NCBI GenBank assembly: GCA_903856025.1
Contig: CAIOAQ010000275.1
Coordinates: 1-34,054, forward strand
DNA from: an uncultured beta proteobacterium
GTDB lineage: Bacteria > Pseudomonadota > Gammaproteobacteria > Burkholderiales > Burkholderiaceae_C
DNA length: 34,054 bases
Direction: 5' to 3'
In this document: positions 1 to 17,111 of the stretch, one piece after another
Position numbering within the stretch: position 1 is the stretch's first letter
Layout of the letters: each line of letters starts with the position of its first letter
The notes under the pieces: model-generated
Databases searched by the model: none
Told to the model about the DNA's origin: nothing
Seen by the model: only the letters and a program-made list of their open reading frames with translations
Program-made: the position numbers and the translations under genes

Positions 1-474
1 TACAGTGCCAATTCCGTGGTTCAGTATTCGGAACTGGCACATTCGACTGTCAACCTGGTGCGTGACGCCCGCATGATGACTGTGGGGGGGGGTGTCCAGC
101 GCACATTCGCATCAGACTGGCATCCCAGCCTTGGCCTGCAGGTCACTTATGCAAAAGAAGCCAACCTGCATTTGCGCAACGATTTAAGCAGAGACCTGTT
201 GACAGCGCGGGTGTCTGGGCAAGCGAACCCCACCGATCGAATAGGTCTGAGCGTTGGTATTGCATGGCAACAAAGTTTGTATGACCAAGCCGATATTGCT
301 TTTGGTACAGCGCGACGGGATGTGATGTGGACTGGCGATGCTGGGATGAACTATTTATGGAGCCGTAATTGGCTGATTCGTGCAGATCTTCAATACACCG
401 ACAACGAGTCGAACCAGGCTTTGTATTCCTATCGTCGCCTTCTTGTGGGTTTGCGGACCCGTTACCTTTTTTAG
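1..474 (+). CDS. C-terminal part of outer-membrane beta-barrel protein, DUF560/Slam (surface lipoprotein assembly modifier)-like; 5' end outside window
   Basis: Frame is open from base 1. Alternating beta pattern, late motif RRDVMW..YTDNESNQALYSYRRLLVGLRTRYLF resembling the DUF560 barrel end, and a terminal aromatic F as in outer-membrane barrels. Confidence 0.6.
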   Translation, partial: YSANSVVQYSELAHSTVNLVRDARMMTVGGGVQRTFASDWHPSLGLQVTYAKEANLHLRNDLSRDLLTARVSGQANPTDRIGLSVGIAWQQSLYDQADIAFGTARRDVMWTGDAGMNYLWSRNWLIRADLQYTDNESNQALYSYRRLLVGLRTRYLF

Positions 475-483
475 GGATTGATC

Positions 484-1647
484 ATGCATCGTTTACTGGT
501 GGGACTCCTGGTGGCTTTAATGACGACTGCCGTTATGGCTGGAGATGTTCGGGTGTTGTCGGTGCTTGGTCAGGTGCAGCGGTTGAACCAAGGGCAGTGG
601 GTACCTTTGAAGGTAGGGGATGCGATTCAGGGGGCATTTGATGTTCGTTCGGGTGAACTTGGAACTGCGCAACTCTTGCTGGATGGCGGCGCTGTTTTGG
701 AAGTTCCACGTAGCAGCGAAATTGCAGTCCTGGTTACGCCGCAGACCGTCCTCAAACTCGTCAGTGGTGGGCTGAGCGTTTTGGCGGGCAAGCAAGAGGT
801 CAATCTGCAAGCACTGGGTTTTGACTTCCGGACTGGGGGATACCTTCGTTTGCACCATTGTGGGGCTGGTTGCAAGGAGGTAACTGGTTTGTATGGCAAA
901 GCGTTTGCTGGCGAAGTTATTGTGGAGTACCCAGGTGGACGATCCGTTCTTAAAGCAAAACCTTTCAGGGTCACAGCAGGAGGTAGACGCCCGGTGCTGT
1001 TGGCGCGCGATACAGATTTGCTGTCTGATGACAATCAACTCGAACTGGCAGCAAAGTCAAAATTGGTGTTGGCTGATCAAATAAAAGTTGGCATGGATGC
1101 TTTCAAGGCCGGTCAATTTAGTCAAGCTCGGGAGGTCCTGCTTGCCGTGAGGGAGACTTCACCCACAGAAAAAATTGTGTCTTATTATTTGGGGTTGATC
1201 GCGCTTGAGCTCAAGGACAACGATGCAGCTTTGAAGCATTTGCAGCAGTATGCAATTGATGATCCACAGTCTGCTCGCGACCGGGGCGTGAATCAATTAG
1301 TCACATTGTTGCTGACCAATCAGTTGCAAAATGAAGTCAAGCAGGCCTTGCAAACGGAGAGCGCAATTTCCGCCGAAAAACCAGAACCCAACACCATCGC
1401 TGTGCAGGCGTTTACCAATCGTGGTGACCCCGCCTATGCCGCTTTGGCCAAAGGGATCGCGGCAATGGTCATCACCGATTTAAGTAAGGTGCCTGGTCTC
1501 AAGGTGCTGGAGCGACAGAAGGTACAGAAGTTAATGGATGAGATTCAACTAAGCGAAAGTGGGTTGGTGACCCAGGACACGATGGTCAAGGCGGGGCGCC
1601 TGATTCGTGCCGAAAAGGTGGTTGTAGGCAGCTTTGGAGTGCAATGA
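484..1647 (+). CDS. Exported FecR-domain protein with TPR and N-terminal part of a CsgG/FlgO-like domain
   Basis: Signal peptide MHRLLVGLLVALMTTAVMA. FecR-like region (GDVRVLSVLGQVQRLNQGQWVPLKVGDAI...), TPR-like region, then NTIAVQAFTNRGDPAYAALAKGIAAMVITDLSKVPGLKVLERQKVQKLMDEIQ...AEKVVVGSFGVQ. Confidence 0.75.
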   Translation: MHRLLVGLLVALMTTAVMAGDVRVLSVLGQVQRLNQGQWVPLKVGDAIQGAFDVRSGELGTAQLLLDGGAVLEVPRSSEIAVLVTPQTVLKLVSGGLSVLAGKQEVNLQALGFDFRTGGYLRLHHCGAGCKEVTGLYGKAFAGEVIVEYPGGRSVLKAKPFRVTAGGRRPVLLARDTDLLSDDNQLELAAKSKLVLADQIKVGMDAFKAGQFSQAREVLLAVRETSPTEKIVSYYLGLIALELKDNDAALKHLQQYAIDDPQSARDRGVNQLVTLLLTNQLQNEVKQALQTESAISAEKPEPNTIAVQAFTNRGDPAYAALAKGIAAMVITDLSKVPGLKVLERQKVQKLMDEIQLSESGLVTQDTMVKAGRLIRAEKVVVGSFGVQ

Positions 1648-2987
1648 TGAGGACCAATAAATGTCTCGGTGTTTTGTTGGTGGCCTCGTCGGCTTTTGTG
1701 GCGCATGCGGAGCGCTTTGATCTGGAGAGCGCCATCATTGAGAGTGCAAGCTCAAAGGCCATAGGCGGGGGTAAAAAAAGTGGTGATGTGTCCACTTTTT
1801 TCACGGCCCAAAAAGAAATGGTTTATGCCGCCTTAAGTGACCTTGGCATACCACTGGAGAGTTTGCCAGTGGATATCCGGCGCAATGTTGAGCGCATGCA
1901 CACCACCAATTTTGCAGCGTTCAAAATGTTTTCATTGGGCCTCAATGCGCAGGACCAGGGCAAGTTTGCCGAAGCCAAGGCCTTCTTTGAAAAAGCGGTT
2001 GAACTGGATCCAAATTTCGAGTTGGCGGGCAATCTGGTTGTCTCCATGCCGGGCAGTAACGTTGCTGGTACCGTTCAGTTGCAAGCGGCTTTGGCTGCTG
2101 CGGCAAAAGCCGCTACGACGTCCGGCAAAGTTCAAGTCGAAGTAGATCTGTCAGGTGCAATTGCCGCTTTGCAGTCCGGTCAATCGGTTGTGGTGGGGAG
2201 TAAACCTGATGCCAGCGTGAGTACAGCCAGCGCAAAAGACGCAAGCAACAATTTCACCACAAACCCAGCTGGCTCAGGCTCTAACTATGCCGACCGGCGT
2301 GTTGTGGCTGTGAGCTACCTGCGGCAAGATGCAACGGGCATTCCAATTGCAATTGCCTCGACCAACGAATGGACATTGGACCAGGTGACTGCCGATTCGA
2401 CCGGATTAGTCAAAGTGGGTGATGCTGCGGTGTTTCAGGCTACCCGATCGAATGCAACCGACCAGCCCACTGGTTCAGTTGTTTTAAGCAGCGGTTCTAC
2501 GGTGTCTTGGGGTACCTGGCAAACAGGCGCGGGAAGTTACACGGTTTCGTCCAACGGTGCCGCCATGACCAATCTTGGACCGCAATTTCAATACATGATC
2601 GGGCAGGCGACGCGCGCCATGCCCACGACAGGCGTGACAGCATTTGTTCCGGCTGGTGGTTTCCTGAACAATGTAAGTGGGACCATTGGTGTTGATTTTG
2701 TCAACCAGGCAGTTCAGTTGAACAATCTTGGCTTTGGCATCGGTAACCTGAATTTTGCAAACCTGAATGGTGCTGCGGTCTATTCCACCACCATTGGTTC
2801 AGGTTTTTTCAAAGGTAACTACGCATCCGGAACCTGTACGGGTTGCACAGCGTTTTCACCGGAAGCCAGCGTTTTCACAGGTAATTTTCTTGGTAAAACG
2901 GCTGATGGCTTGATGTTTTCAACGGTGCTTGCGACTGGAAACGGAACTGTTTCCGGCGTGCACGCATTTTCCAGGCCTGGTCCTTAA
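1644..2987 (+). CDS. Exported protein: CsgG/FlgO-like C-terminal part, TPR, glycine-rich beta C-terminal domain (possibly TbpB-like barrel)
   Basis: ATGA overlap with upstream gene. Signal peptide MMRTNKCLGVLLVASSAFVAHA. RFDLESAIIESASSKAIGGGKKSGDVSTFFTAQKEMVYAALSDLGI aligns by eye to the second half of CsgG/FlgO domains. TPR GKFAEAKAFFEKAVELDPNFELA. C-terminus GSGFFKGNYASG...VFTGNFLGKTADGL. Confidence 0.6.
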   Translation: MMRTNKCLGVLLVASSAFVAHAERFDLESAIIESASSKAIGGGKKSGDVSTFFTAQKEMVYAALSDLGIPLESLPVDIRRNVERMHTTNFAAFKMFSLGLNAQDQGKFAEAKAFFEKAVELDPNFELAGNLVVSMPGSNVAGTVQLQAALAAAAKAATTSGKVQVEVDLSGAIAALQSGQSVVVGSKPDASVSTASAKDASNNFTTNPAGSGSNYADRRVVAVSYLRQDATGIPIAIASTNEWTLDQVTADSTGLVKVGDAAVFQATRSNATDQPTGSVVLSSGSTVSWGTWQTGAGSYTVSSNGAAMTNLGPQFQYMIGQATRAMPTTGVTAFVPAGGFLNNVSGTIGVDFVNQAVQLNNLGFGIGNLNFANLNGAAVYSTTIGSGFFKGNYASGTCTGCTAFSPEASVFTGNFLGKTADGLMFSTVLATGNGTVSGVHAFSRPGP

Positions 2988-3001
2988 TCTCGGACACTTC
3001 G

Positions 3002-5848
3002 TTATTGGAGGCTTGATTTCAGGATGATTTTTTGGTTCTTGGACCAGGTGCCTTTTTTCTCTACAACCTTGGCATAGGACATCAAGTCTTCTGAGGCCGT
3101 AATTTCCAGTTGCCCCAGCTTGGTTTCACGATAACCCAGAATGCGGCCATTGAGCTCAATGGGTACACCTTCACCCAGTACGTTGAACGCTTGACCTGGG
3201 GTGGCACCGTGTTTTTTACCCAGGTTGATGATGATGGACTGGTCATCGTCAGCCATGGCGATGCGACCTTTGAGCGGGTATTTTTCGTGGATATTTTTGG
3301 CGACAGCCTCCGCCATGTCCTCAGCCAGTGAAACCGGATCTATGGTAATGTTTCGTTGAGTGGCTGAATAGGCGATGTTGCTGGTTTCGGTGTCTATGAT
3401 ACGCATGGACACAGCTTTGCTCTGGCCTGCACCGGTGAACGTGCCGGTGGTGATCAATCGTGCCGCCATGATTCTGCCCAGTCGCAACTGCGTATCAGGG
3501 TCGGCCAGCTCAGAGGATCCAAGTTTCAGTTCTGCCAGAAGTTTGTCAAGTATGGCACGGTCCACCACGGTGATGCCTTTGTTGAGCAAAGCTTGTGAAA
3601 ATTCCTGTAGCAAAAGCTTGTCCATGCCCAGCTTGCCCAACAGCTCCGTGTCTCCGCTGGTTTGGAAATCCAAAACCGAAACTGCCATGGCTTGAGATGT
3701 CCAGTCATCTGCGGGGCGGGCAGGTTTGGTGTTTTTCTGCTCCTTGAACCGCGCAACCAGCTCTTTGACTGATTCGTCGATGTAGCGTTGCCGTTCCAGA
3801 TCCATTTTTTGTTTGCCGGCCTGTTCAGCTTGATGCAGAAGCGCCAGCACTGCCCGATCGCGGGGGGCACGTTCGCCAGCTTGTTTCAATAGCTCCAGCG
3901 CCTGCGCGTTATTGCCCATGGACTGAAGTACGGCGGCCTGGTTGGCTAAGGCATCCGCCGCATAGGGGTTGACCTCGACAGCTTCCTTGTAAGCGGTCAC
4001 CGCGATGGACGGTGAAATTTTCTTAAGCAAATTCCCGCGTGCAGTTGTAGCCTCGGCAGTTTGCCAGGAAAAATCTGCCACAGCGTTGGAAGAAGATGCA
4101 ATCGCAACCGCCTGCTCGGCACCATTGCTGTCACCCTTGGCGGCAAGTACCTTCGCTCGTGTCATTTGTGAAGAGGTGCGATTGGGGTTTAACTTTATAG
4201 CGGCATCAGACTCTGCGAGCGCCTTCTCGAGATCGCCTGCCAACAAGGCCACTTCGGCCAAACCTTCGTGTCCTCGCATGGCCATATCTTTGCGTGAATC
4301 CGCAGTCGCAGCTTTGAAAATAACCATGGCATCTGCGGACTTATTTTGCCTGAGCAGGCTGTAAGCATTGCCAATCTGTGCCAAGGTCATCGTTGGCAGC
4401 AATCCCCTGAGGGAGTTGAAGAGTTGACTGGCAGCTACCGGGTTTCCGCGTGTCAGCATGGATTCGGCCAAAGAAAAGATCACGGTATCGTTGCTTGAAC
4501 CTCCGCCATTGATCACACTGGTGACTGTGCCGCCTTGCGTGGTCACGACCACTGTGGGGAGCATGTCAGAGATGTGAAATTTTTTGAGAATTTCTTCGTC
4601 GGCACTCACCAGATGGAAATTGCTGCTCTCTTTGACGCTTAGGCTTTCCAGTGCACTTGTCGGCATCTTTCCAAAAGCCAGCACCACGAGTCCATCATTT
4701 TTATATTGTGCCGACAAATCACGCAGACGGGACAGTGTTTCCAAGCAACCTTTGCATCGTTGGGTATCAAAAAAATACAAGACCGACATGGGATTTTTTG
4801 AAATGGCATCGTTATTGATGGCGGCTTTCCCTACAGAAAAAGTATTGAAAGGAGGCACAGTCTCTCCTATACGCATCGTTGCGCGCTCGACCATCGTGCG
4901 CCCGGTGGCTTCTTTCTTCGCGGAAAACTCAGCAATGCGGTTCTGTGCCAAGCTGACAAATGTTCCTTGTGGGAAATCTTTCAGATAGGCTTTGAAGTCA
5001 TTGATAAAGGTGCTGTTCTTGATGGTTTCCCAGTACGCAACATCTGCCGCATTGCCAGAAACCGGAACGGAAAAACTTGCGCCGTCCAATGGAATGAGAA
5101 AGAAGTCTTCGCCTTTGAGGCTGCTTTCTTCTCGTGGGCTTTGACCGCCGCCGGATTCGCGCTCGACACCATCACGGGTGCGCTTGAAAATCTGCTCAAT
5201 CGTTAATCCTGGAATACGGATGTTGGAGAGCAGGTATTTGGAATACAAACCATTGCGTCCGCTGCCATCGCTGGCTTCTGTGCCTGGTGCTGTGGAAAAA
5301 GCAACCAATGCGCCGCTTGGGGCATCCATCCGCGCCAGTCCGCTAGATGAAGATAAAGAGCGAGACTTTTTTCCGTAGAAGGGGTTGTTGCGGCACGCAT
5401 CCAGTATCACCACGCTGATGCGATTGTTGGCTTCTTCCAGGCGGCGCATGACGAAGTTGATGTCAATGGCGTAATCTTCCACATCCTGCTCAGATTTGTA
5501 TTGGCGACCAACAGGTAGCAGGAAGTTTTTCCCGTTTACTTGTACGCCGTGCCCCGCGAAGAAGAAAAAGCCTGCGGCATCCTTGTTCTTCTTCATCAAT
5601 TCGCCAAAGTCTCGGATGGCTGTTTTCATGCCCTCAGCGTTGAGGTTTTCACGCTGGATGATGTCAAAGCCGACGCTTTTGAGGGCGTTGCCCATGTCCT
5701 GTACATCGTTGACTGGATTGGACAAGGGGGCGAAATCGTAGCCGCCATTGCCAATGAGCAACGCAATTCGTTTTTCTGTCGCTGCATGCAACAGCGTCGT
5801 TGAAAAGCCGATGACAAAGATGAGCAGGATGCGTAAAAACGTAGTCAT
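3002..5848 (-). CDS. Exported caspase-family (peptidase C14-like) protein with redoxin-like, TPR, CsgG/FlgO-like and C-terminal beta domain
   Basis: Signal peptide MTTFLRILLIFVIGFSTTLLHA. KRIALLIGNGGYDFAPLSNPVNDVQDM, catalytic His in FFFFAGHG (H100) and Cys in LDACRNNPF (C152). Redoxin-like SVLYFFDTQRCKGCLETLSRLRDL. TPR run. VSVLDFQTSGDTELLGKL...KLGSSELADPDTQLRLGRIMAARLITTG. Confidence 0.85.
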   Translation of the reverse strand: MTTFLRILLIFVIGFSTTLLHAATEKRIALLIGNGGYDFAPLSNPVNDVQDMGNALKSVGFDIIQRENLNAEGMKTAIRDFGELMKKNKDAAGFFFFAGHGVQVNGKNFLLPVGRQYKSEQDVEDYAIDINFVMRRLEEANNRISVVILDACRNNPFYGKKSRSLSSSSGLARMDAPSGALVAFSTAPGTEASDGSGRNGLYSKYLLSNIRIPGLTIEQIFKRTRDGVERESGGGQSPREESSLKGEDFFLIPLDGASFSVPVSGNAADVAYWETIKNSTFINDFKAYLKDFPQGTFVSLAQNRIAEFSAKKEATGRTMVERATMRIGETVPPFNTFSVGKAAINNDAISKNPMSVLYFFDTQRCKGCLETLSRLRDLSAQYKNDGLVVLAFGKMPTSALESLSVKESSNFHLVSADEEILKKFHISDMLPTVVVTTQGGTVTSVINGGGSSNDTVIFSLAESMLTRGNPVAASQLFNSLRGLLPTMTLAQIGNAYSLLRQNKSADAMVIFKAATADSRKDMAMRGHEGLAEVALLAGDLEKALAESDAAIKLNPNRTSSQMTRAKVLAAKGDSNGAEQAVAIASSSNAVADFSWQTAEATTARGNLLKKISPSIAVTAYKEAVEVNPYAADALANQAAVLQSMGNNAQALELLKQAGERAPRDRAVLALLHQAEQAGKQKMDLERQRYIDESVKELVARFKEQKNTKPARPADDWTSQAMAVSVLDFQTSGDTELLGKLGMDKLLLQEFSQALLNKGITVVDRAILDKLLAELKLGSSELADPDTQLRLGRIMAARLITTGTFTGAGQSKAVSMRIIDTETSNIAYSATQRNITIDPVSLAEDMAEAVAKNIHEKYPLKGRIAMADDDQSIIINLGKKHGATPGQAFNVLGEGVPIELNGRILGYRETKLGQLEITASEDLMSYAKVVEKKGTWSKNQKIILKSSLQ

Positions 5849-5853
5849 GATGG

Positions 5854-6585
5854 TTATTGCCTCGATAGCTGATCTAGTGCCAGTTTGATCTGGCGTTCGG
5901 CAGCGGAAAAGTTGGGGCTGACGGCAAGAATGGCGCTGAATGTTTCGATTGCGCCAGCATAGTCCTTGTGATCCATTTGTGCCAGTCCCTGATTGAATTG
6001 GCGGTTCAAATCGTCACTTGTCGAAACAGTTGCTGCCCCTGTCCGATTCTTTACGGAGAGGGCCTCAAGCTTGGACACCAACGCACCAGCGACCTCCGGC
6101 ATCTTCTGCAGGAGGTCATTGACTTGCGCGCTGACCTCACTTGTGGCAAGAACTTCAGAGGTCTCAGTGGACACCAGTCGCACGTCCAGTCTGGCTTGAT
6201 CGCCAATGCGCATGATGCTGCCAAACACCATGTTTTTAGCACCTGCCAGACGACCAAGACGCAGGCGCGTATCCTCATCAGCCAAGGCGGATGACCCCAA
6301 CTTTTGCTCGTCCAAAATTTCGCGCAGCCGAGATCTTTCGATGACGTGCAGCGTGGAACGGGTGAGTAACTGTTCGATCAACAACTCGGGCAATGAGGTC
6401 GCTAAAGGGGTGGTCGTGTCGTTGGGGATTGTTGTGATGCTGTGTGTGTCAAAGTCCCAGACTGCCAACGGGTCATCTGCACCACCCTGAGCCAAGGTGT
6501 TCTCCATGAGCAAGCCCAGCATCAGCACCGTGCAAACAAAATAGACCCAGATTTTTGGGCGGTTGAAGATGGCAAATCGTTTCAT
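5854..6585 (-). CDS. Exported CsgG/FlgO (LpoB-like) family protein with C-terminal TPR
   Basis: ATG at 6585 (MKRFAIFNRPKIWVYFVCTVLMLGLLMENTLAQ signal). LAVWDFDTHSITT...LLIEQLLTRSTLHVIERSRLREILDEQKLGSSALADEDTRLRLGRLAGAKNMVFGSIMRIGDQARLDVRLVSTETSEVLA. TPR at end. Ends 5 bp before the caspase-like gene. Confidence 0.75.
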   Translation of the reverse strand: MKRFAIFNRPKIWVYFVCTVLMLGLLMENTLAQGGADDPLAVWDFDTHSITTIPNDTTTPLATSLPELLIEQLLTRSTLHVIERSRLREILDEQKLGSSALADEDTRLRLGRLAGAKNMVFGSIMRIGDQARLDVRLVSTETSEVLATSEVSAQVNDLLQKMPEVAGALVSKLEALSVKNRTGAATVSTSDDLNRQFNQGLAQMDHKDYAGAIETFSAILAVSPNFSAAERQIKLALDQLSRQ

Positions 6586-6672
6586 GACGGCTTGAGTGGC
6601 ATCAAACTTCACTGAGGTTTCGGGTTGGATAACTCGGCTATACACGGTACTTCGTGGCGGACGCTATGGGGG

Positions 6673-8931
6673 TTACTTGGTTTCAAAAGTGTAAACGCCA
6701 TCCCAATCTTCGGGGGGTGGTTGATTTGCAAAATGCAGGATGCGGTGCATGTAAATTTGATAGAGCTTTCGGTTGGGGTCTTTGGCGCGCAATGCATCAA
6801 ATGCCGCCTGTGCTGCTTCCCAATGCTGCGAACGGTACAAGGCGAGCGCGCGGTCGTAAGCTGCCAGGTGTTCCAGTACTGCAGGCGTGATCCGCTCAGT
6901 GAGCCCCAATGGTTCATAGATGCGCACAGGTTTGTCTTTGCCTTTGACACGCACGCAATCAAGTTCACGAAATGTGAAGTCGGTCAAACCATTGCGTGTG
7001 AATTCACTGACGATGATGTCGACACCATATTGTTTGGTCAAGCTTTCGAGTCTGGAACCCAGATTCACAGCATCACCCATCACCGTATAAGCAAGTCGAA
7101 ACTCAGAACCCATGTTGCCAACGGTCATCTCTCCGGTATTTACGCCAACTCCAATGGCAATGGGCGGCCAGCCATGCGCTTTGAACTGCTCTTGCAAGGT
7201 GGCCAATTCGGCCACCATGTCCAATGCTGCCAGCACAGCGGATCGGGCATGTTGTGGGTCGCTGACTGGTGCACCCCAAAAAGCCATGATGGCATCGCCC
7301 ATGTATTTATCGATGGTGCCACGATGGCGATGAATCACATGGGTCATCGGGGTCAAATACGCATTCATGAGTTGCGTCAGTTGATTGGGCTTCAAACCTT
7401 CTGAAATATGGGTGAATCCACGTACATCCGAGAACAACACGGTTAGTTCGCGTCCTTCACCTTTGAGGCTGTAGGCACCAGGATCCTGTGCCATCTCGTC
7501 AACCAGTTCTGGCGGGACATATTGGCCAAACAAATGCGCCAGCAGTCGCTTTGCTCGCGAATCTACAAAAAAACCGTAGGACATATTCAGAACAAAAAGC
7601 GCACTCACCAAAATCAGACTGCTGGCCAGTGGCAGTATCAGTTGTTGAAACTGCCAAAAATAGAGATTGCACAACACCATCAGTGCCATCGCGCCGGCCG
7701 ACAAGAGCGTGGCAGGCAAAGGCATAAGCGTTGGCAATGCAAGCGCCAGCGCAATACCTAGCGCAAGGATAAATCCGGCCTCAAGCCCATTTGTGTAGGC
7801 CGGGAGCGCCTTGATGTTGCCGTCCAGAATGGCGGACACCATGTTGGCATGCACCTCCACGCCAGCATACGACTCCTGCACCGGGACAGTGCGCACGTCA
7901 TTCAGCCCAGTCGCCGTGGTTCCGACAAGCACAATGGCGTCACGGAGGATTTCTGGATCAGCCTTGCCCTGCAAGACGTCGCTTGCCGATACATACTGAA
8001 AGGTCCTCTGGCGTCCCCGAAACGGGATCCATGCGCCAACTTGTGCGTCCACGGGAATGCTTTGGTTGCCCAGTTGCAATGTTTCCAATGCGTGAGCACC
8101 AACGAGTGAATATCCCGGCTTCACCGGAGGAGCCTGCAACGCCAAACGGGCCACAGCCAAACTTAAGGTTTCGTATAAATTTCCTTTGTACATTTGCAGC
8201 AGGGAAATTCGCCGGAAAACCCCATCACTTTCCACTAAAGGGGATGCGTTGAAAAAGCCGCCTGCCAGAGCAGCATCTTGGAATTGCGGGAGATTGCCGT
8301 AATAGCCTCTGGCGTTCATGGCACCTACCGATCCGGGCGAAAACTGGTCGCGCCCTATCGCGGGTTCTGGTAGTACGCCCACTTCGGCGGTGTCGTCATC
8401 GCTGTGCGTGAAGAAATAGCCCATGACAATCAATCGATTTTTAAGGCTACGGGCAAACAAATCGTCGTACCGCAGCTGCGGTCGCAAGTGGTCCAGTGCT
8501 TTGGAAAACTGCTCGTTGTCCCTCAGTTCTTGATGTTCAAGTCGTTCCAGAATGTTTAACCCCGAACTGTTGTCATGCTCCGCAAACAACATGTCAAAGC
8601 CGAGCACCTTGATTTGGTACTGGTCAAACAATTTGTTAACCATGTTTGCGAGCTGATTGCGTGGCCATGGCCAGTGCCCCTGCTGCTGAAGGCTTTTTTC
8701 GTCAACATCGACAATCACCACACGCGGATCCCCCGTGTCAGGCATCGTCAACCTCAGGCGTGCGTCGTAGGCGTAGTTTTCAACGCTCTGCACAAAACCC
8801 AGGTTCAGTACGCCGACCGTGTGCAGCAACAAAATCCCAATAACGGCCAGGCTTAAGCTGATGCGCATGGCGTGCCGTTTGAAAAAACCTCTCTTTTTCA
8901 TAGTGGGAAATGATTGTGACGACGCAATCAT
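6673..8931 (-). CDS. CHASE2 domain-containing class III adenylate cyclase
   Basis: CHASE2 region (SVENYAYDARLRLTMPDTGDPRVVIVDVDEKSLQQQGHWPWPRN), TM helices, cyclase core LTVLFSDVRGFTHISEGL, IDKYMGDAIMAFWGAP, YTVMGDAVNLGSRLESL. ORF-track start at 9114 is implausible because it overlaps hutC; start likely 8931 or 8901. Confidence 0.92.
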   Translation of the reverse strand: MIASSQSFPTMKKRGFFKRHAMRISLSLAVIGILLLHTVGVLNLGFVQSVENYAYDARLRLTMPDTGDPRVVIVDVDEKSLQQQGHWPWPRNQLANMVNKLFDQYQIKVLGFDMLFAEHDNSSGLNILERLEHQELRDNEQFSKALDHLRPQLRYDDLFARSLKNRLIVMGYFFTHSDDDTAEVGVLPEPAIGRDQFSPGSVGAMNARGYYGNLPQFQDAALAGGFFNASPLVESDGVFRRISLLQMYKGNLYETLSLAVARLALQAPPVKPGYSLVGAHALETLQLGNQSIPVDAQVGAWIPFRGRQRTFQYVSASDVLQGKADPEILRDAIVLVGTTATGLNDVRTVPVQESYAGVEVHANMVSAILDGNIKALPAYTNGLEAGFILALGIALALALPTLMPLPATLLSAGAMALMVLCNLYFWQFQQLILPLASSLILVSALFVLNMSYGFFVDSRAKRLLAHLFGQYVPPELVDEMAQDPGAYSLKGEGRELTVLFSDVRGFTHISEGLKPNQLTQLMNAYLTPMTHVIHRHRGTIDKYMGDAIMAFWGAPVSDPQHARSAVLAALDMVAELATLQEQFKAHGWPPIAIGVGVNTGEMTVGNMGSEFRLAYTVMGDAVNLGSRLESLTKQYGVDIIVSEFTRNGLTDFTFRELDCVRVKGKDKPVRIYEPLGLTERITPAVLEHLAAYDRALALYRSQHWEAAQAAFDALRAKDPNRKLYQIYMHRILHFANQPPPEDWDGVYTFETK

Positions 8932-8978
8932 GTTACCCCTTAAACCTCGAAATATATGAGACCCAGTAGGCCGAATAG

Positions 8979-9701
8979 CTACAACTGAAACTTGCCACCA
9001 AAGCTGTAGCGTGAGCCCGGGTAAACCAACCGTGCCAGACTGGCCACATGCGGGCCACTGACGGTGCTGCGTGTCATCACCAGGCAAGGCTCGCCGCGCT
9101 TGATGCCCAAGCATTGGGCATCAGCGGGGTTGGCTGGTGTGGCTTCGATGGTGAAGCTGGCCTCGGTCAGTGGTGCATGTTCCAACAAATAGCGGGTTGG
9201 TGTGGTGACGGTGAAATCATTTTCCAAATAAAGCGGAGCCGCTTGCGGGTTCACGTGCCGATCTTCCAGCTGGATGGCGACACCGTCTTCAAAGTGCACC
9301 TGCACCGAATGAAACAGCTTGGCTCCGCTGTGTACCCTGAATATTTGCGCTTGCGCGACGTTGGCCCGCGTTGTTTCCATTAACAAAATCTTGGTCGTGT
9401 GTACATGACCACGCGCCAGAATGTCATCGTGGATGTCGCGTATTTGAAGGCTGCTTGAGATGCGGTGCAGCTGCGCCACCACCGTTCCCGAGCCTTGCAC
9501 TCGGTTGACCACACCTTCCACGGCCAATTCCTTGACCGCCCGGTTGATCGTCATGCGGCTGACGCCAAATTGTTGCTGCAATGCAGACTCGCTGGGTACG
9601 CTGTCGCCGGGTCGCCAGGAACCGTTGGTGATTTGTTGTTTGATGAAGGCTTTGACCTGTTCATAGGCCGGAAGTGGATTTGTCGGGGCGATCGGTGTCA
9701 T
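8979..9701 (-). CDS. hutC: Histidine utilization repressor, GntR/HutC family
   Basis: N-terminal GntR wHTH (PAYEQVKAFIKQQITNGSWRPGDSVPSESALQQQFGVSRMTINRAVKELAVEGVVNRVQGSGTVV), UTRA domain, divergent from hut operon. Confidence 0.95.
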   Translation of the reverse strand: MTPIAPTNPLPAYEQVKAFIKQQITNGSWRPGDSVPSESALQQQFGVSRMTINRAVKELAVEGVVNRVQGSGTVVAQLHRISSSLQIRDIHDDILARGHVHTTKILLMETTRANVAQAQIFRVHSGAKLFHSVQVHFEDGVAIQLEDRHVNPQAAPLYLENDFTVTTPTRYLLEHAPLTEASFTIEATPANPADAQCLGIKRGEPCLVMTRSTVSGPHVASLARLVYPGSRYSFGGKFQL

Positions 9702-9762
9702 GGTCTGAATTTAGCGCATAAACCCCCGCTGATCCACCTGAGGGTTTTCACCTATTTGACAA

Positions 9763-9778
9763 AGTTGTATAGACAACT
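9763..9778. promoter_or_regulatory. Putative HutC operator inside the hutU promoter
   Basis: Perfect inverted repeat AGTTGT-ATAG-ACAACT, between a -35-like TTGACA (9756-9761) and -10-like TATAGA (9778-9783), upstream of hutU and in the hutC/hutU divergent region. Confidence 0.8.
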
Positions 9779-9823
9779 ATAGAATTTAGACACCATGACA
9801 CCCAACTTGTATCGGAGATCACC

Positions 9824-11530
9824 ATGACCCACCCAAGCAACCTGCCATTTGCGGATGCGCAAGCTCGCACTGTGCGCGCACCGCGTGGTAATTCCCTGGT
9901 CTGTGCCAACTGGCAGATTGAAGCTGCGTACCGCATGTTGCAAAACAACCTTGACCCTGATGTGGCTGAAAACCCCGACGCTTTGGTGGTGTACGGCGGT
10001 ATCGGCAAGGCGGCACGAAACTGGGCCTGCTTTGACGGCATTCTGGACAGTCTGAAAAAACTCAAGACTGACGAAACCTTGCTGGTACAAAGCGGCAAAC
10101 CGGTCGGCGTCTTTCGTACCCACGCCGATGCACCACGGGTGCTGATTGCGAATTCCAACCTGGTGCCCAAATGGGCCAACTGGGAGCACTTCAACGAACT
10201 CGACCGCAAAGGCTTGATGATGTACGGCCAGATGACGGCAGGCAGCTGGATTTACATCGGCTCGCAAGGCATTGTGCAAGGCACCTACGAAACCTTTGTC
10301 GAAGCTGGTCGTCAACACTTTGACGGCAACCTGGCGGGGCGTTGGGTGTTGACCGCTGGTCTGGGCGGCATGGGCGGTGCGCAGCCTTTGGCTGCCACCT
10401 TTGCCGGCGCGTGCTCGCTCAACATCGAGTGCCAGCAAACCAGCATCGATTTTCGCCTGCGCACCCGCTATGTGGACGAACAGGCGACCGATCTGGACGA
10501 CGCGCTGGCTCGTATTGCCAAATACACCGCAGAGAAAAAAGCGGTGTCCATTGCCCTGTGTGGCAATGCTGCAGACATCGTGCCGGAGCTGGTCAAACGT
10601 GCCAAGGCCGGTGGCATCCGTCCGGACATCGTCACTGATCAAACGTCTGCGCACGACATCATCAACGGCTATCTGCCCTCAGGTTGGAGCGTGGACCAGT
10701 GGAAGGCCGCTCAAAAAGACCCGTCTCAACACGCAGCACTGACCCAGGCCGCAGGCGAATCCTGCGCACGCCACGTGCAGGCCATGCTCGACTTCCATGC
10801 CATGGGCATACCCACGGTGGACTATGGCAACAACCTGCGCCAGGTGGCCAAGGACTTTGGTGTGACCAATGCCTTTGACTACCCCGGTTTTGTACCCGCC
10901 TATGTGCGCCCGCTGTTTTGCCGTGGGGTCGGTCCCTTCCGTTGGGTGGCCTTGAGTGGTGACCCAGAGGACATCCAAAAGACCGACGCCAAGATGAAAG
11001 AACTCTTCCCCAACAACGCCGGACTGCACCGCTGGCTGGACATGGCGCAAGAACGCATCGCGTTCCAGGGCCTGCCGGCACGCATCTGCTGGATTGGTCT
11101 GGGCGAGCGCCATCTGGCGGGTCTGGCATTCAATGAGATGGTGAAAAACGGTGAACTCAAAGGCCCGATCGTCATTGGCCGTGACCATCTGGACAGTGGC
11201 TCGGTCGCTTCACCGAATCGTGAAACCGAAGCCATGCAGGACGGCAGCGACGCGGTGAGCGACTGGCCGCTGCTCAACGCCTTGCTCAACACGGCAAGTG
11301 GTGCCACCTGGGTCAGCTTGCACCATGGCGGTGGTGTGGGCATGGGCTACTCGCAACACGCCGGGGTGGTGATCGTTGCTGACGGCACGCCCGAAGCTGC
11401 AGCTCGGCTGGAGCGGGTGCTGTGGAACGATCCCGCCACCGGGGTCATGCGTCACGCCGACGCAGGCTATGAAATTGCTGAACAATGCGCCCAACAACAC
11501 GGCATGAACATGCCCATGAAAGGATTCTGA
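9824..11530 (+). CDS. hutU: Urocanate hydratase
   Basis: [48 protein letters not shown] and full-length HutU similarity. Confidence 0.98.
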
Positions 11531-11531
11531 G

Positions 11532-13082
11532 ATGACCGCTACGCTTTGCATTCAACCCGGCCACCTCACGCTGGAGCAACTTCTTGCCATTCACGCGGGT
11601 GGCATCAAGCTCACGCTGCCGCAATCTAGCCAGGCCATCATCGCAGCCAGCCAACAAGTGGTTCAACGTGCGGCCGATGGCGATGCGCCGGTGTACGGTG
11701 TCAACACCGGTTTCGGCAAGCTGGCCAACCAGCGCATCAGCAAAAGTCAGCTGGAAACCTTGCAGCTCAACCTGATCCGCTCGCACAGCGTGGGCGTGGG
11801 CGAGCCGCTGGCCCCCGAAATCATGCGGCTGATGATCGCACTCAAGGCGGCCAGTCTGGCGCGTGGCTACTCAGGCGTGCGTCAGGTGGTGGTGGACACT
11901 TTGCTGGCAGTGTTCAATGCAGGGCTGACCCCTTTTGTGCCGCAACAAGGCTCAGTTGGTGCTTCCGGTGATTTGGCCCCTTTGGCACACATGACCCTGG
12001 CCCTGCTGGGCGAGGGCGACATGCTGGTCAATGGCCAGCGCATGCCCGCTATGCAAGCCCTGCAACAAGCCGGTATCGAACCGCTCAAGTTAGGTGCCAA
12101 GGAAGGCCTGGCGCTGATCAATGGCACACAAACCTCCCCCGCCCTGGCTTTGCACGCCTTGCTGAGTTTCGAGCCGGTGCTAGAAGCGGCGCTGGTGATT
12201 GGTGCTCTCACGATCGATGCCGCCCGTGGCAGTGACGGCCCGTTTGACCCGCGCATCCACATGCTGCGTGGTCAACCCGGTCAAATCGACGTGGCGCAGT
12301 ATTACCGCGCGCTGCTCAAAGGCAGCGCCATCCGCAACTCGCACCTGGACGGCGACGACCGCGTGCAAGATCCTTATTGCCTGCGCTGCCAGCCTCAAGT
12401 GGTGGGGGCCTGCCTGGACCAGGTGCGCCACGCCGCCTTGGTGCTGGTGCGCGAGGCCAATGCGGTCACCGACAACCCGCTGGTGTTTGCCGAAGACGGC
12501 GCCATGCTCTCCGGTGGCAATTTCCACGCCGAGCCCGTGGCGTTGGCAGCGGACGGCATGGCCCTGGCGATTGCCGAAGTGGGTGCAATTGCCGAGCGCC
12601 GTATCGCCATGTTGATTGACAGCAGCGTGTCGCGCCTGCCACCCTTCCTGACCAGCGATGCCGGTTTGAACAGCGGCTTCATGATCGCCCATGTCACCGC
12701 AGCCTCCCTGGCCTCCGAGAACAAATCGCTGGCGCATCCGGCCAGCGTGGACAGCCTGCCCACCAGCGCCAACCAGGAAGACCACGTGTCCATGGCCACC
12801 TTTGCGGCACGCCGCTTGCAAGCCATGATCAGCAACACCGCCCACATTCTGGGTATTGAGTTGCTGGCCGCTGCGCAGGGCATCGAATTTTTGCGCCCGA
12901 TGACCAGTTCTGCCGCGCTGGAAGAAGCCCACAGCTTGCTGCGCTCAGAGGTGCCCGCGCTGACGCAAGACCGCTACCTGGCACCTGATATTGCCCATGC
13001 GGCAGCGATGGTGCGCACGGGGGCGCTGTCACCGATATTCCGCAGCTTGCCGGGTCTGCCCAAGCTGTGGCTTGAAGTCTGA
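11532..13082 (+). CDS. hutH: Histidine ammonia-lyase
   Basis: MIO-forming ASG in [45 protein letters not shown]. Confidence 0.98.
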
Positions 13083-13100
13083 ACACGCACTGGAGAAGCC

Positions 13101-13673
13101 ATGAGCTGGCAAACCATCGCCCTGGCGGACGCACCGCCCAGCCCCTGGAAAAACGGCGGCGGCCTCACCCGCGAACTGGTTGCCTGGCCCAACGCGCAAG
13201 ATTGGGTGTGGCGCATGTCGGTGGCCGAGGTGGCCTTGAGCGGGCCGTTCTCGCACTTCGCTGGTGTGCAGCGTTGGTTTGCGGTGTTGTCGGGCGCTGG
13301 GGTGCGGCTGGACATGGGCACCTCACCCGACGTGGCCGTTCACACCTTGACGGACAGCAGCGCACCGCTGTGCTTTGAGGGTGAACTGCCAGTGCAGTGC
13401 ACCCTGCTGGAGGGCTCCACGCAAGATTTCAACCTGATGTTGCGCCGAGGCTGTGTGGGTGGCCGGATGCTGCGGCTGGACCGTGACCATTTTGAGAAGC
13501 TGAACAATTCAAAAACAATAGCTGTGTACGCAATGAATACGGGGGCTATAGTGCAATTTAATGATGAATCTCTGGCGATTTCACCGAATACCCTGGTTTG
13601 GCGGACTTGTCCCGAAGGAACCCGCCTCATCCTGCAAACCGCCAGCGCCTTGTGGATGGAGATCACCGCATGA
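13101..13673 (+). CDS. hutD: HutD family protein
   Basis: [29 protein letters not shown]; position between hutH and hutI. Confidence 0.92.
13518..13549 (-). repeat. Dispersed 31-bp hairpin repeat, copy 1 (inside hutD)
   Basis: ATAGCTGTGTACGCAATGAATACGGGGGCTAT; reverse complement gives TAGCCCCCGTATTCATTGCGTACACAGCTAT, matching the other five copies at both ends and in length. Confidence 0.75.
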
Positions 13674-14878
13674 AACTCTGGACGCATTGCACCGCCGCCA
13701 CCATGCAAGCGCAGGCTGCCGAGTCCTACGGACTTGTCAACGATGCCGCCTTGGTGGTGGACGGTGCGCATTTGCGCTGGGTTGGCCCGCGCAGTGCGTT
13801 GCCAGCGGAACTGGCACAGCAATGCCTTGAGACGCACGACTGCTGTGGTGCCTTGGTCACGCCGGGGCTGATCGACTGCCACACGCATCTGGTTTATGGC
13901 GGCGACCGCGCCCATGAGTTCGAGTTGCGGCTGAACGGTGCAAGCTATGAAGACATCGCCAAGCGTGGCGGCGGTATCGCCTCCACCGTGCAGGCCACGC
14001 GCAGCGCCACACCGGAGCAGTTGAAAGCGCAAAGCACTGTGCGGCTGAAGCAGCTGCTGAGTGAAGGCGTGACCACCCTGGAAATCAAGTCGGGCTATGG
14101 CCTGGCGCTGGAGCCTGAGCGCAAGATGCTGCAGGTGGCGCGTGCGCTGGGGCAGCAGTTTGCCGTCGATGTACGCACCACTTTTCTGGGCGCACACGCT
14201 CTGCCGCCCGAGTTTGCCGGTCAGCCCGATGCCTACGTGGGCGAGGTCTTGCGCATATTGCCCGCGTTGTGCGCCGAAGGTCTGGTCGATGCGGTGGACG
14301 GATTTTGCGAGCGCATCGCGTTCAGCCCGGCGCAAATCAGGCGTGTGTTTGAAACCGCTTCCGCACTGGGTTTACCCGTTAAGCTGCATGCCGAACAACT
14401 CAGCGACAGCGGTGGTGCCGCTCTTGCAGCGGGCTTTAACGCTCTGAGTTGCGACCATCTGGAATGGTTGTCCGAGGCGGGCGCGCAGGCGATGTCCAAG
14501 GCGGGCACGGTGGCGGTGCTGCTGCCCGGTGCCTTCTATTTCCTGCGCGAAACCAAGTTGCCGCCGGTGGAACTGTTGCGCAGCCAGGGTGTGCCCATCG
14601 CCATTGCCACCGACTGCAACCCGGGCAGCTCGCCTTGCACTTCGCTGCTGCTCATGCTCAACATGGCCTGCACCTTGTTTCGTTTGACCCCGGAAGAAGC
14701 CCTGGCTGGTGTCACCCGCCATGCGGCAAAAGCATTGGGGCTGACGGATCGCGGGGAATTGGCGGCAGGCAACCGCGCCGACTTTGTGCTATGGAATGTG
14801 AAGCACCCTGCGCAGCTTTCATATGGGCTAGGGGCCAATCCATGCATACAAACCGTGTACCAAGGGGAGCCGCGATGA
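13670..14878 (+). CDS. hutI: Imidazolonepropionase
   Basis: ATG at 13670 overlaps hutD stop (ATGA). [47 protein letters not shown]. Confidence 0.97.
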
Positions 14879-15696
14879 ATTTCACATTGCACCAGGGCAA
14901 CGCGCCGCTGTTGGTGAGCATGCCGCATGTGGGCACGCACATTCCGTCCGCGTTGCACAACGCCTACGTGCCACGCGCCTTGGCGGTGGAAGACACCGAC
15001 TGGCACCTGCCCCAGTTGTACAACTTTTTGCCAGAGCTGGATGCCAGCGTGCTGGTGGCGCACACCTCTCGCTATGTCATCGACCTGAACCGCCCGCCTG
15101 ACGATGCGCCCATGTACCCCGGCGCTGCGAACACCGAGCTTTGCCCCACCCGGTTTTTCACCGGTGAGGCGCTTTACCAGCCGGGCTGCGAGCCTACAGT
15201 GGATGAACGGCTGCAAAGGCGTGCGACCTATTGGCAGACCTACCACGATGCGCTGGCGGCAGAACTCCAGCGCCTCAAGGCGATCCACGGCTTTGTGCTG
15301 TTGTGGGACGCGCACAGCATCCGCTCGCAGATTCCCTGGTTGTTTGAAGGCACGCTGCCGGGCTTGAACATTGGCACGGCCAGCGGTGCCAGCGCCGACC
15401 CGGCCATCACCGCTGCCATCGACCAAGTGTGTGGAGCGACCGATGCCGTCACGCACGTGGTCAATGGCCGCTTCAAGGGTGGTTACATCACCAGGCATTA
15501 CGGCGCACCACGTGAGCAGGTGCACGCGGTGCAGCTGGAAATGTGTCAAAACCTGTACATGGCTGAGATTAAGCCCTTTGAATTTGACGAGCACAAGGCT
15601 GAGGCGATTCGGCCCTTGCTAAAAGACATGATGCTGCACGCATTGGCGGCTTGCACTGCTGCAGCCCGAGCGGCTCAGAAAGACCAACGACCATGA
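14875..15696 (+). CDS. hutG: N-formylglutamate deformylase (N-formylglutamate amidohydrolase)
   Basis: [51 protein letters not shown] overlap with hutI. ORF-track start 14449 is upstream of the real start. Confidence 0.95.
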
Positions 15697-17111
15697 GTTC
15701 GACCCCATTTTTTGCATCACAAGCCTGGGTTGGCGGCGCGTGGGCCCCCAACGTGCTGTTGTCGGTGGATGCCCGCGGCAACTGGTGCGGTGTTCAGCCC
15801 CATGCCACTGAGGATGAACGTCGCGGTGCAACACAACTCAGCGGCCCGGTGTTGCCCGGTGTGGTCAATGCCCACAGCCACGCGTTTCAACGTGCCATCG
15901 CGGGCTTGACGGAACGCCGTGGCACCCACGGTGGCGCACAAAGTGACGATTTCTGGAGTTGGCGCGACCGCATGTACTCGGTGGCGCGGCGCATCACGCC
16001 CGAGCAAATGGAGGCGATCGCCACCTTTTTGTATGCCGAGCTGCTGACCGGTGGCTACACCCAGGTGTGTGAGTTTCACTACCTGCACAACGCCGTGGAT
16101 GGCGCAGCCCACGCCGACCCGCTGGAGATGTCACTGGCCTTGGTGCGGGCCGCGCAGCGGGTGGGCATGGGCCTGACGCTGCTGCCCACGCTGTACATGC
16201 GCTCGGGGTTTGAGGCGACGGGCTTGCGTGACGACCAGCGCCGCTTTGCGTCAACGCCAGACAGCGTGCTGCGTCTGGTGGATGCAGTGCAGCGCCAAAC
16301 GGCAGATTTGGCGAACATCAATGTGGGTGTGGCGATCCATTCGCTGCGTGCTGCGGATGCGGCGGCGGTGAATGAAATGGCCCTTGAAGCCAACTCACGT
16401 GGCTTGCCGGTGCACATCCACATTGCAGAGCAAACCCAGGAAGTGCAAGACTGCCTCAATCACACCGGCCAGCGCCCGATTGAATGGCTGATGTCCCACG
16501 TGGCGGTTAATGACCATTGGAACCTGGTGCACGCCACCCATACCACCTTGCCCGAATTGCAGGCGGTGCAGCGTGCCGGTGCGTCGCTCGTCATTTGCCC
16601 CAGCACCGAAGCCAACCTGGGCGATGGTGTGTTTGATTATTCCAACTACGCTGCTTTGGGTGGCAAGTGGTCCATCGGCTCCGATAGCCATGTCACCCGC
16701 AGCTGGTCAGAAGAATTGCGCTTGTTGGAATACGCCCAACGCCTGACGCAGCGCAAGCGCAATGTCGCGGCTCAAACCGGCCCCCATCCCAGCTCCGCGG
16801 CAGCGCTGTTCGAGGCGGCCCTGGCGGGTGGGCAAGCAGCCTGCGCCAAACCACTGGGCGACATCAAGCTGGGGAACCGCGCGGACTTTCTGGTACTTGA
16901 CGCTGCGTCACCCGCCCTCTTGGGTGTTCCGTCCAGCCATGTGCTCGATGCGCTGGTGTTTTCCAGCCCCGATGCGCGGTTCTCTGATGTGTTTGTGGCG
17001 GGCAAACAGGTGCTTGCACGCGGGCAAATCACCAATCACACCGACGGGTCAGATACCTGGCTGCATATCAGGCAGGATTTTGTACGGGAGATGAAACAGC
17101 TTTGGGTCTAA
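15693..17111 (+). CDS. hutF: Formimidoylglutamate deiminase
   Basis: ATG at 15693 overlaps hutG stop. PGVVNAHSHAFQRAIAGLTERRG; FWSWRDRMYSVARRITPEQMEAIA; IGSDSHVTRSWSEELRLLEYAQRL. Confidence 0.96.
   Translation: MSSTPFFASQAWVGGAWAPNVLLSVDARGNWCGVQPHATEDERRGATQLSGPVLPGVVNAHSHAFQRAIAGLTERRGTHGGAQSDDFWSWRDRMYSVARRITPEQMEAIATFLYAELLTGGYTQVCEFHYLHNAVDGAAHADPLEMSLALVRAAQRVGMGLTLLPTLYMRSGFEATGLRDDQRRFASTPDSVLRLVDAVQRQTADLANINVGVAIHSLRAADAAAVNEMALEANSRGLPVHIHIAEQTQEVQDCLNHTGQRPIEWLMSHVAVNDHWNLVHATHTTLPELQAVQRAGASLVICPSTEANLGDGVFDYSNYAALGGKWSIGSDSHVTRSWSEELRLLEYAQRLTQRKRNVAAQTGPHPSSAAALFEAALAGGQAACAKPLGDIKLGNRADFLVLDAASPALLGVPSSHVLDALVFSSPDARFSDVFVAGKQVLARGQITNHTDGSDTWLHIRQDFVREMKQLWV

Follow-up and report, generated by a model that had tools for sequence, protein, structure and literature searches.

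Five genes at the left end of a contig from an uncultured beta proteobacterium (family Burkholderiaceae_C; GenBank assembly GCA_903856025.1, contig CAIOAQ010000275.1), here called A to E, form a rare conserved gene set linked to a two-partner secretion (TPS) locus, that is, to the adjacent genes for TpsB and for a TpsA adhesin. The window that we analysed is this entire contig of 34,054 nucleotides (C275, bases 1-34054), and its first gene, A, is open at the left end. We give a probability of roughly 0.5, judged from sequence, to the reading that the locus serves adhesin secretion and maturation, with surface display resembling that of the type XI secretion system (T11SS), a periplasmic caspase-like protease and, through a sixth gene, F, a facultative cyclic-nucleotide input. 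A preliminary description of this DNA had listed a Slam-like barrel, a FecR/TPR protein, three CsgG/FlgO-like domains, a C14 protein and a CHASE2 cyclase. Open reading frame (ORF) analysis and a Pfam domain search recovered all six genes in bases 1-8931, so that this inventory is real, with one of the three CsgG/FlgO-like domains split and with FecR below threshold in the window. The two converging gene sets it described are also there: A, B and C follow one another on the + strand and F, E and D on the - strand, downstream of hutC, and the stops of the convergent genes C and D are separated by 14 bases. The features are as follows.

1-474, + strand: A, the C-terminal 157 residues of a tetratricopeptide repeat (TPR) plus outer-membrane beta-barrel protein (putatively Slam/T11SS-like), cut by the contig end.
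478-1647, + strand: B, predicted exported protein with a weak FecR-like part, TPR and the first half of a CsgG/FlgO-like domain (Pfam; signal-peptide-like N-terminus).
1390-1632, + strand: region of B holding the first half of the split CsgG-like domain (Pfam CsgG, residues 305-385; alignment with fused homologues).
1644-1647, + strand: ATGA overlap of the B stop and the C start (identical four-base overlap in L033, L070 and L071).
1644-2987, + strand: C, predicted exported protein made up of the second CsgG-like half-domain, a single TPR and a C-terminal domain that is beta-rich.
1713-2018, + strand: region of C holding the TPR and the split domain's second half (from its alignment to the fused G328 and G449 homologues).
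2256-2984, + strand: C-terminal domain of C, which may be a distantly related barrel of the T11SS-cargo (TbpB) type (profile score).
3002-5848, - strand: D, predicted exported C14 caspase-like protein with a thioredoxin fold (CKGC), TPR and a CsgG/FlgO-like domain.
5114-5773, - strand: caspase (C14) domain of D (PF00656, 3.7e-35 / 4.3e-36).
4520-4870, - strand: AhpC/TSA-like redox domain of D with CxxC (Pfam, 5.9e-7).
3356-3763, - strand: FlgO/CsgG-like domain of D (PF17680, 1.2e-4; CsgG, 1.9e-4).
5854-6645, - strand: E, predicted exported CsgG-like plus TPR protein (PF03783, 3e-15; probable start ATG 6585).
6673-8904, - strand: F, CHASE2 plus class III adenylate cyclase, a facultative neighbour (true start about 8904-8934, placed near 8904 by comparison with full-length relatives, most of which start around residue 70 of the ORF).

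Eight further genomes carry the gene set or part of it, seven of them with a TPS locus; in the eighth (G458, locus L032) E-D alone is visible, at a contig end. The arrangement of the window recurs in G459 (L033), where adhesin-A-B-C converges on D-E, and in G008, where adhesin-A-B-C converges on D at the contig end, and the adhesin of these two loci bears YDG and/or MBG repeats (YDG, E-value 4.7e-257). In G328 and G449 the genes run D-E-TpsB-TpsA-A-B-C on a single strand, an order shared by G392, while G128 has E-TpsB-TpsA-A-B-C-D and the cassette of G255 is interrupted by a contig break (the simple gene caller missed B in G449 and G255, and C of G392 was taken from the coordinates of the search with C). 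In the seven cassettes where it is visible, A lies directly after TpsA, usually at a distance of tens of bases, and the adhesin is contiguous with A-B-C in G008, G459, G128 and G328. The domain search in G128 and G328 identified the TpsB of the cassettes by ShlB (1.5e-23) and POTRA_2 (1.2e-17), and TpsA of G328, adjacent to tpsB, has an N-terminal TPS domain (1.5e-34).

Searched separately, E (5854-6645) and C (1644-2987) were found in the identical six of 401 genomes of the family, from three genera, which would happen by chance with a probability of about 2e-13, a value to be read knowing that the genomes are not independent. The gene set has been kept through 41-47% identity and several rearrangements. 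Since the gene order is conserved across genomes and genera and E and C occupy the same genomes, A-E is more than a chance assemblage, and the co-occurrence that the preliminary description had put forward for the whole neighbourhood thus holds for A to E and fails for the cyclase F.

The genome to which the window belongs has a single TPS locus, on contig C547, where TpsB is followed by TpsA, a pair orthologous to that of the cassettes. This TpsB shares 43-45% identity with the cassette TpsBs and about 30% or less with other TpsBs, and the TpsA, with a TPS domain (3.7e-36) and 24 FG-GAP repeats, is a 3563-residue fragment truncated by the end of the contig. The G+C content at third codon positions (GC3) of the pair is 51.6 and 57.6%, low as in A-F (52-62%, versus 66-78% in the remaining genes of the window). 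The window genes would then continue the C547 TPS operon, with the assembly broken within the adhesin repeats.

Comparison with fused homologues shows one CsgG-like domain divided between two polypeptides, B and C, each with its own predicted signal peptide for export. B matches Pfam CsgG (3.3e-7) over the first half of the domain, and in G328, G449 and G255 a separate protein joins the CsgG part of B directly to the N-terminal part of C. In the alignment with this fused form B terminates where the first half of the domain is complete; C, past its signal peptide, starts with the second half, followed by a TPR like that of E. The 'more divergent version split over the + strand genes' of the preliminary description therefore corresponds to the C-terminus of B and the N-terminus of C as two halves of one domain. 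The domain is also split in the distant Gammaproteobacteria G713 and G598, where a C-like N-terminus lies beside B, and at one G713 locus an A-like gene stands ahead of B. It is unlikely that a programmed frameshift joins the two genes, because C starts with its own signal-peptide-like sequence in eight aligned orthologues. The fused B-C-like protein is encoded by its own gene, away from the cassette, in cassette-bearing genomes (L149, L150, L151). No relative of C was found on known plasmids. As for the FecR-like part of B, PF04773 gave no match in the window B at an E-value of 0.1, and its matches in B orthologues were weak (5.6e-4 and 2.6e-3; 18.6-20.7 bits versus a cut-off of 24).

Gene A is probably a diverged relative of Slam, as judged by profile comparison. 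The window fragment matched Pfam BBP2_2 (1.2e-6) and not Slam; the full-length orthologues (L033:15978-17306 and L039:3536-4897) have an N-terminal TPR part and then a barrel of about 290 residues, whose extent was taken from the alignment. An A orthologue matched 'surface lipoprotein assembly modifier' genes on Alloyangia plasmids (7e-5), which adjoin annotated T11SS cargo, and these controls themselves match PF04575 and PF01298. Against the Slam profile A aligned end to end over 352 columns (97.9%, E-value 5.5e-13), a result driven mostly by the TPR part; the barrel alone scored 33.5 versus 14.6 +/- 2.6 for shuffled columns (maximum 26.7, 0/150; probability 27%), and a TpsB barrel used as comparison scored 19. 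The C-terminus of C is beta-rich and unclassified, and gave a similar picture with the cargo profile: a collinear match scoring 32.5 versus 13.5 +/- 2.5 for shuffled columns (maximum 24.6, 0/150; probability 25%), with WGxWQxG-like and MPTTG motifs common to the two. It could possibly be a T11SS-cargo-like (TbpB-type) barrel and the cargo of A. PDB profile searches of A, C and the C-terminus of C returned TPRs and chance matches only, and AlphaFold, run on A with a two-sequence alignment, modelled only the TPR region, with fair confidence. A genome search with PF04575 found no match anywhere, controls included, so that absence is not shown by it. These profile results for A and C are suggestive; family membership is not established, because both proteins stay below the Pfam thresholds.

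D is an apparently exported protein of the caspase family, with a signal-peptide-like N-terminus and a His-Cys dyad (AGHG, DACR) that is intact in all eight aligned orthologues. The CKGC motif is kept in three orthologues and reads CRSC in G128, and the redox domain is absent from the D orthologues of the G328 group. A strong D orthologue was present in only two of the same-genus genomes searched. D may act as a maturation, release or quality-control protease for the adhesin, and independent support for a tie between caspases and TPS comes from G112 and G072, where TPS, YDG and C14 caspase domains occur in one ORF. Within 81 genomes of the family, six of 90 caspases lay at most 25 kb from a TPS domain, versus 1.7 expected. 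At L133:7086-11090 (- strand) and L134:8886-14435 (- strand) such single ORFs, with a TPS domain, YDG repeats and a C-terminal C14 caspase, lie beside a ShlB-like gene, and their caspases look like TPS cargo in their own right. Genes resembling those of a type VI secretion system were seen, by eye, near the TPS loci L133 and L136, and four caspase genes occur within 20 kb on one contig of a same-genus genome (L041).

The two CsgG/FlgO-like motifs quoted in the preliminary description, KLGSSELADPDTQLRLGR and KLGSSALADEDTRLRLGR, are exact, and profile searches find the domains it named in E (3e-15), B (3.3e-7) and D (1.9e-4). In E the strongest match spans just positions 13-101 of the 210 of CsgG, an LpoB/FlgO-sized part, and no lipobox was seen by eye in E or D. 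These matches place the alpha/beta domain of CsgG in E, B and D, with no evidence for the pore-forming part of CsgG. The shortness of the match and the lack of a visible lipobox leave a 'CsgG-like assembly' in the sense of a curli pore unsupported.

F has CHASE2 (2.4e-59) and class III cyclase (2.6e-23) domains by Pfam, and from reading its sequence CHASE2, transmembrane helices and the class III catalytic and base-binding residues appear to be present. It immediately precedes E-D in the same orientation, and its distribution marks it as a facultative neighbour, not a fixed part of the cassette. The F orthologues of G008 and G459 are on other contigs or positions, not beside the cassette, and none was found in G128, G255, G328, G392 or G449 (E-value 1e-30). 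Strong matches occur in 34 of 61 same-genus genomes, where F is common without the cassette; its neighbour is often a GAF-HD-GYP gene, and a few contexts have adhesin, FecR and ShlB genes. Among the loci seen, F orthologues often stand ahead of a GAF plus HD-GYP gene (L115-L120, L122, L125, L080), an adjacency suggesting crosstalk between cyclic AMP (cAMP) and cyclic di-GMP. At L121, L123 and L124 an adhesin-like gene (with YDG in L123) and genes for FecR and ShlB precede the orthologue, so that each is a TPS locus with a CHASE2 cyclase.

The G128 cassette has FecR together with a CHASE2-GGDEF/EAL protein, in which GGDEF is degenerate and EAL intact by eye. CHASE2 thus stands beside two of the eight cassettes versus 0.06 expected (P 0.0016 under a simple Poisson model), once with a cyclase and once with GGDEF/EAL, therefore the CHASE2 input recurs and the output differs. 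Proteins with CHASE2, degenerate GGDEF and EAL, the non-CHASE2 domains being read by eye, also lie near FecR genes at L084:16025-19000 (- strand) and L137:6975-10046 (- strand). In the same 81 genomes, 17 of 90 caspases were within 5 kb of CHASE2 (0.36 expected), and FecR was within 5 kb of CHASE2 in at least 41 of 123 cases (0.6 expected). None of the 123 CHASE2 proteins across the family was linked to TPS within 5 kb, and on that ground we rejected CHASE2 as a regular partner of TPS. A recurrent cluster of a caspase, a CHASE2 protein with no cyclase and further caspases, one with DUF4384, is found at L129, L130, L131, L138, L042, L043 and L050, and at L130 it also includes OmpA-family and CHAT proteins. 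CHASE2-FecR pairing has been described in a CHASE2 cyclase cluster of Campylobacterota (PMC9239204) and in the BiofilmReg operon of Burkholderia, where disruption of the regulator abolished biofilm (PMC5192318).

In the adhesin reading that we favour, TpsB would secrete the giant TpsA adhesin and, at the outer membrane, A would display or thread C. In the periplasm the TPR and CsgG-like domains of B, C, D and E would bring these proteins together as a scaffold, with the split domain forming only once B and C have both been exported. D would cleave TpsA or C, leading to maturation, release or quality control of the adhesin, perhaps redox-tuned by its CKGC domain, and F, facultative in this lineage, may couple the state of the envelope or adhesin to cAMP. 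A more ambitious version, which we hold to be a long shot, would have type Vb secretion and a diverged T11SS-like exporter combined on one surface structure, with the caspase-family protease controlling maturation or release of the adhesin and the two-half CsgG-like domain serving as an assembly checkpoint. Several points weigh against the adhesin reading. We infer the join between C547 and the window, since the assembly breaks in the repetitive adhesin gene. The cassette occurs rarely, in 3 of the 141 sampled genera. D has no known substrate and is on the opposite strand in L033 and in the window, so that expression coupling with the adhesin genes is not required. The relationship of A to Slam is clear for the TPR part and weak for the barrel, with no PF04575 or PF24575 match up to an E-value of 1 in eight A members; C has no PF01298 match, and the AlphaFold models of A and C are too poor for a fold test.

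The preliminary description had instead proposed an envelope-sensing machine; on this view stress would pass from the periplasmic protease and the CsgG-like and FecR proteins to the CHASE2 cyclase, with cAMP as the purpose of the set. We consider this rather improbable as a whole: F orthologues are absent from or unlinked to the other cassettes, and many genomes of the genus carry F but no cassette, often with F beside the GAF-HD-GYP gene, and 'adhesin secretion and maturation' fits better because the genes belong to a TpsB/TpsA adhesin locus. The cAMP link in that proposal is nevertheless possible, given the position of F upstream of E-D and the low GC3 it shares with them, the G128 pair of FecR and CHASE2-GGDEF/EAL with CHASE2 at two of eight cassettes, the clustering of caspases with CHASE2, and the FecR-CHASE2 signalling loci already known (PMC9239204, PMC5192318). 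Could A-B-C be an independent T11SS-like surface-protein or hemophore system whose adjacency to TpsA is coincidental? Bona fide Slam/cargo pairs do exist without TPS, and the distant G713 has an A-like-B-C triplet with no TPS visible, but A directly follows TpsA in the seven visible cassettes and D and E track A-B-C despite lying elsewhere in the locus, which makes such a coincidence unlikely. The low GC3 of the island and its patchy distribution over few genera would also agree with a single transfer of genes that travel together and do not act jointly; the retention of the set through divergence and rearrangement and the recurrence of CsgG-like domains among its members make this quite improbable. 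Finally, D might be a suicide or defence effector, as has been proposed for cytoplasmic bacterial caspases, and its intact dyad would suit that role, but its signal-peptide-like N-terminus and its constant linkage to secretion genes leave this explanation very little credence.

The remaining window holds a histidine-utilisation operon and unrelated genes; the low-GC island is adjoined at 8979-17111 by an ordinary hut operon (hutC, hutU, hutH, hutI, hutG, hutF).

The locus shares with known TPS (type Vb, FhaB/FhaC type) a TpsB with ShlB and POTRA_2 and a TpsA with a TPS domain and a long array of repeats (YDG, MBG, GLUG or FG-GAP), encoded by adjacent, co-directional genes. To our knowledge, which is not a systematic survey, TPS loci as usually described have no attached Slam-like barrel, FecR/CsgG-like proteins or caspase, and if our reading is true this would be the first T11SS-like exporter that we know of wired into a TPS operon. 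We found no paper describing this gene combination in a literature coverage that is incomplete. For the comparison with the T11SS (Slam/DUF560) we used the features given in PMC12282271: A, with its TPR part and its barrel of about 290 residues, and the neighbouring C, which combines a variable N-terminus with a beta domain at the C-terminal end, resemble such an exporter and cargo and match real pairs collinearly by profile, but they are too diverged for PF04575, PF24575 and PF01298, and C has no lipobox and an N-terminus that is half of a CsgG-like domain. With the FecR-CHASE2 operons (PMC5192318, PMC9239204) the locus has in common that FecR-like and TPR proteins are encoded near a CHASE2 sensor; it differs in that the FecR-like part is in the adhesin operon, CHASE2 is optional and the output is a cyclase in the window versus GGDEF/EAL in G128. 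Like the bacterial C14 caspases (orthocaspases), D has a p20-type domain with a His-Cys dyad, but it is predicted to be exported and carries redox, TPR and CsgG/FlgO-like domains. The role of exported bacterial caspases is, as far as we know, largely unknown, and the TPS adhesin operon, together with the TPS-caspase fusions found elsewhere, offers a concrete setting and testable substrates for one. Finally, B plus C, D and E share the short alpha/beta domain of the CsgG/FlgO/LpoB superfamily, which here is fused to TPR, caspase or FecR-like parts and is split between B and C; such a natural split, retained in distant lineages, would be an unusual assembly device.

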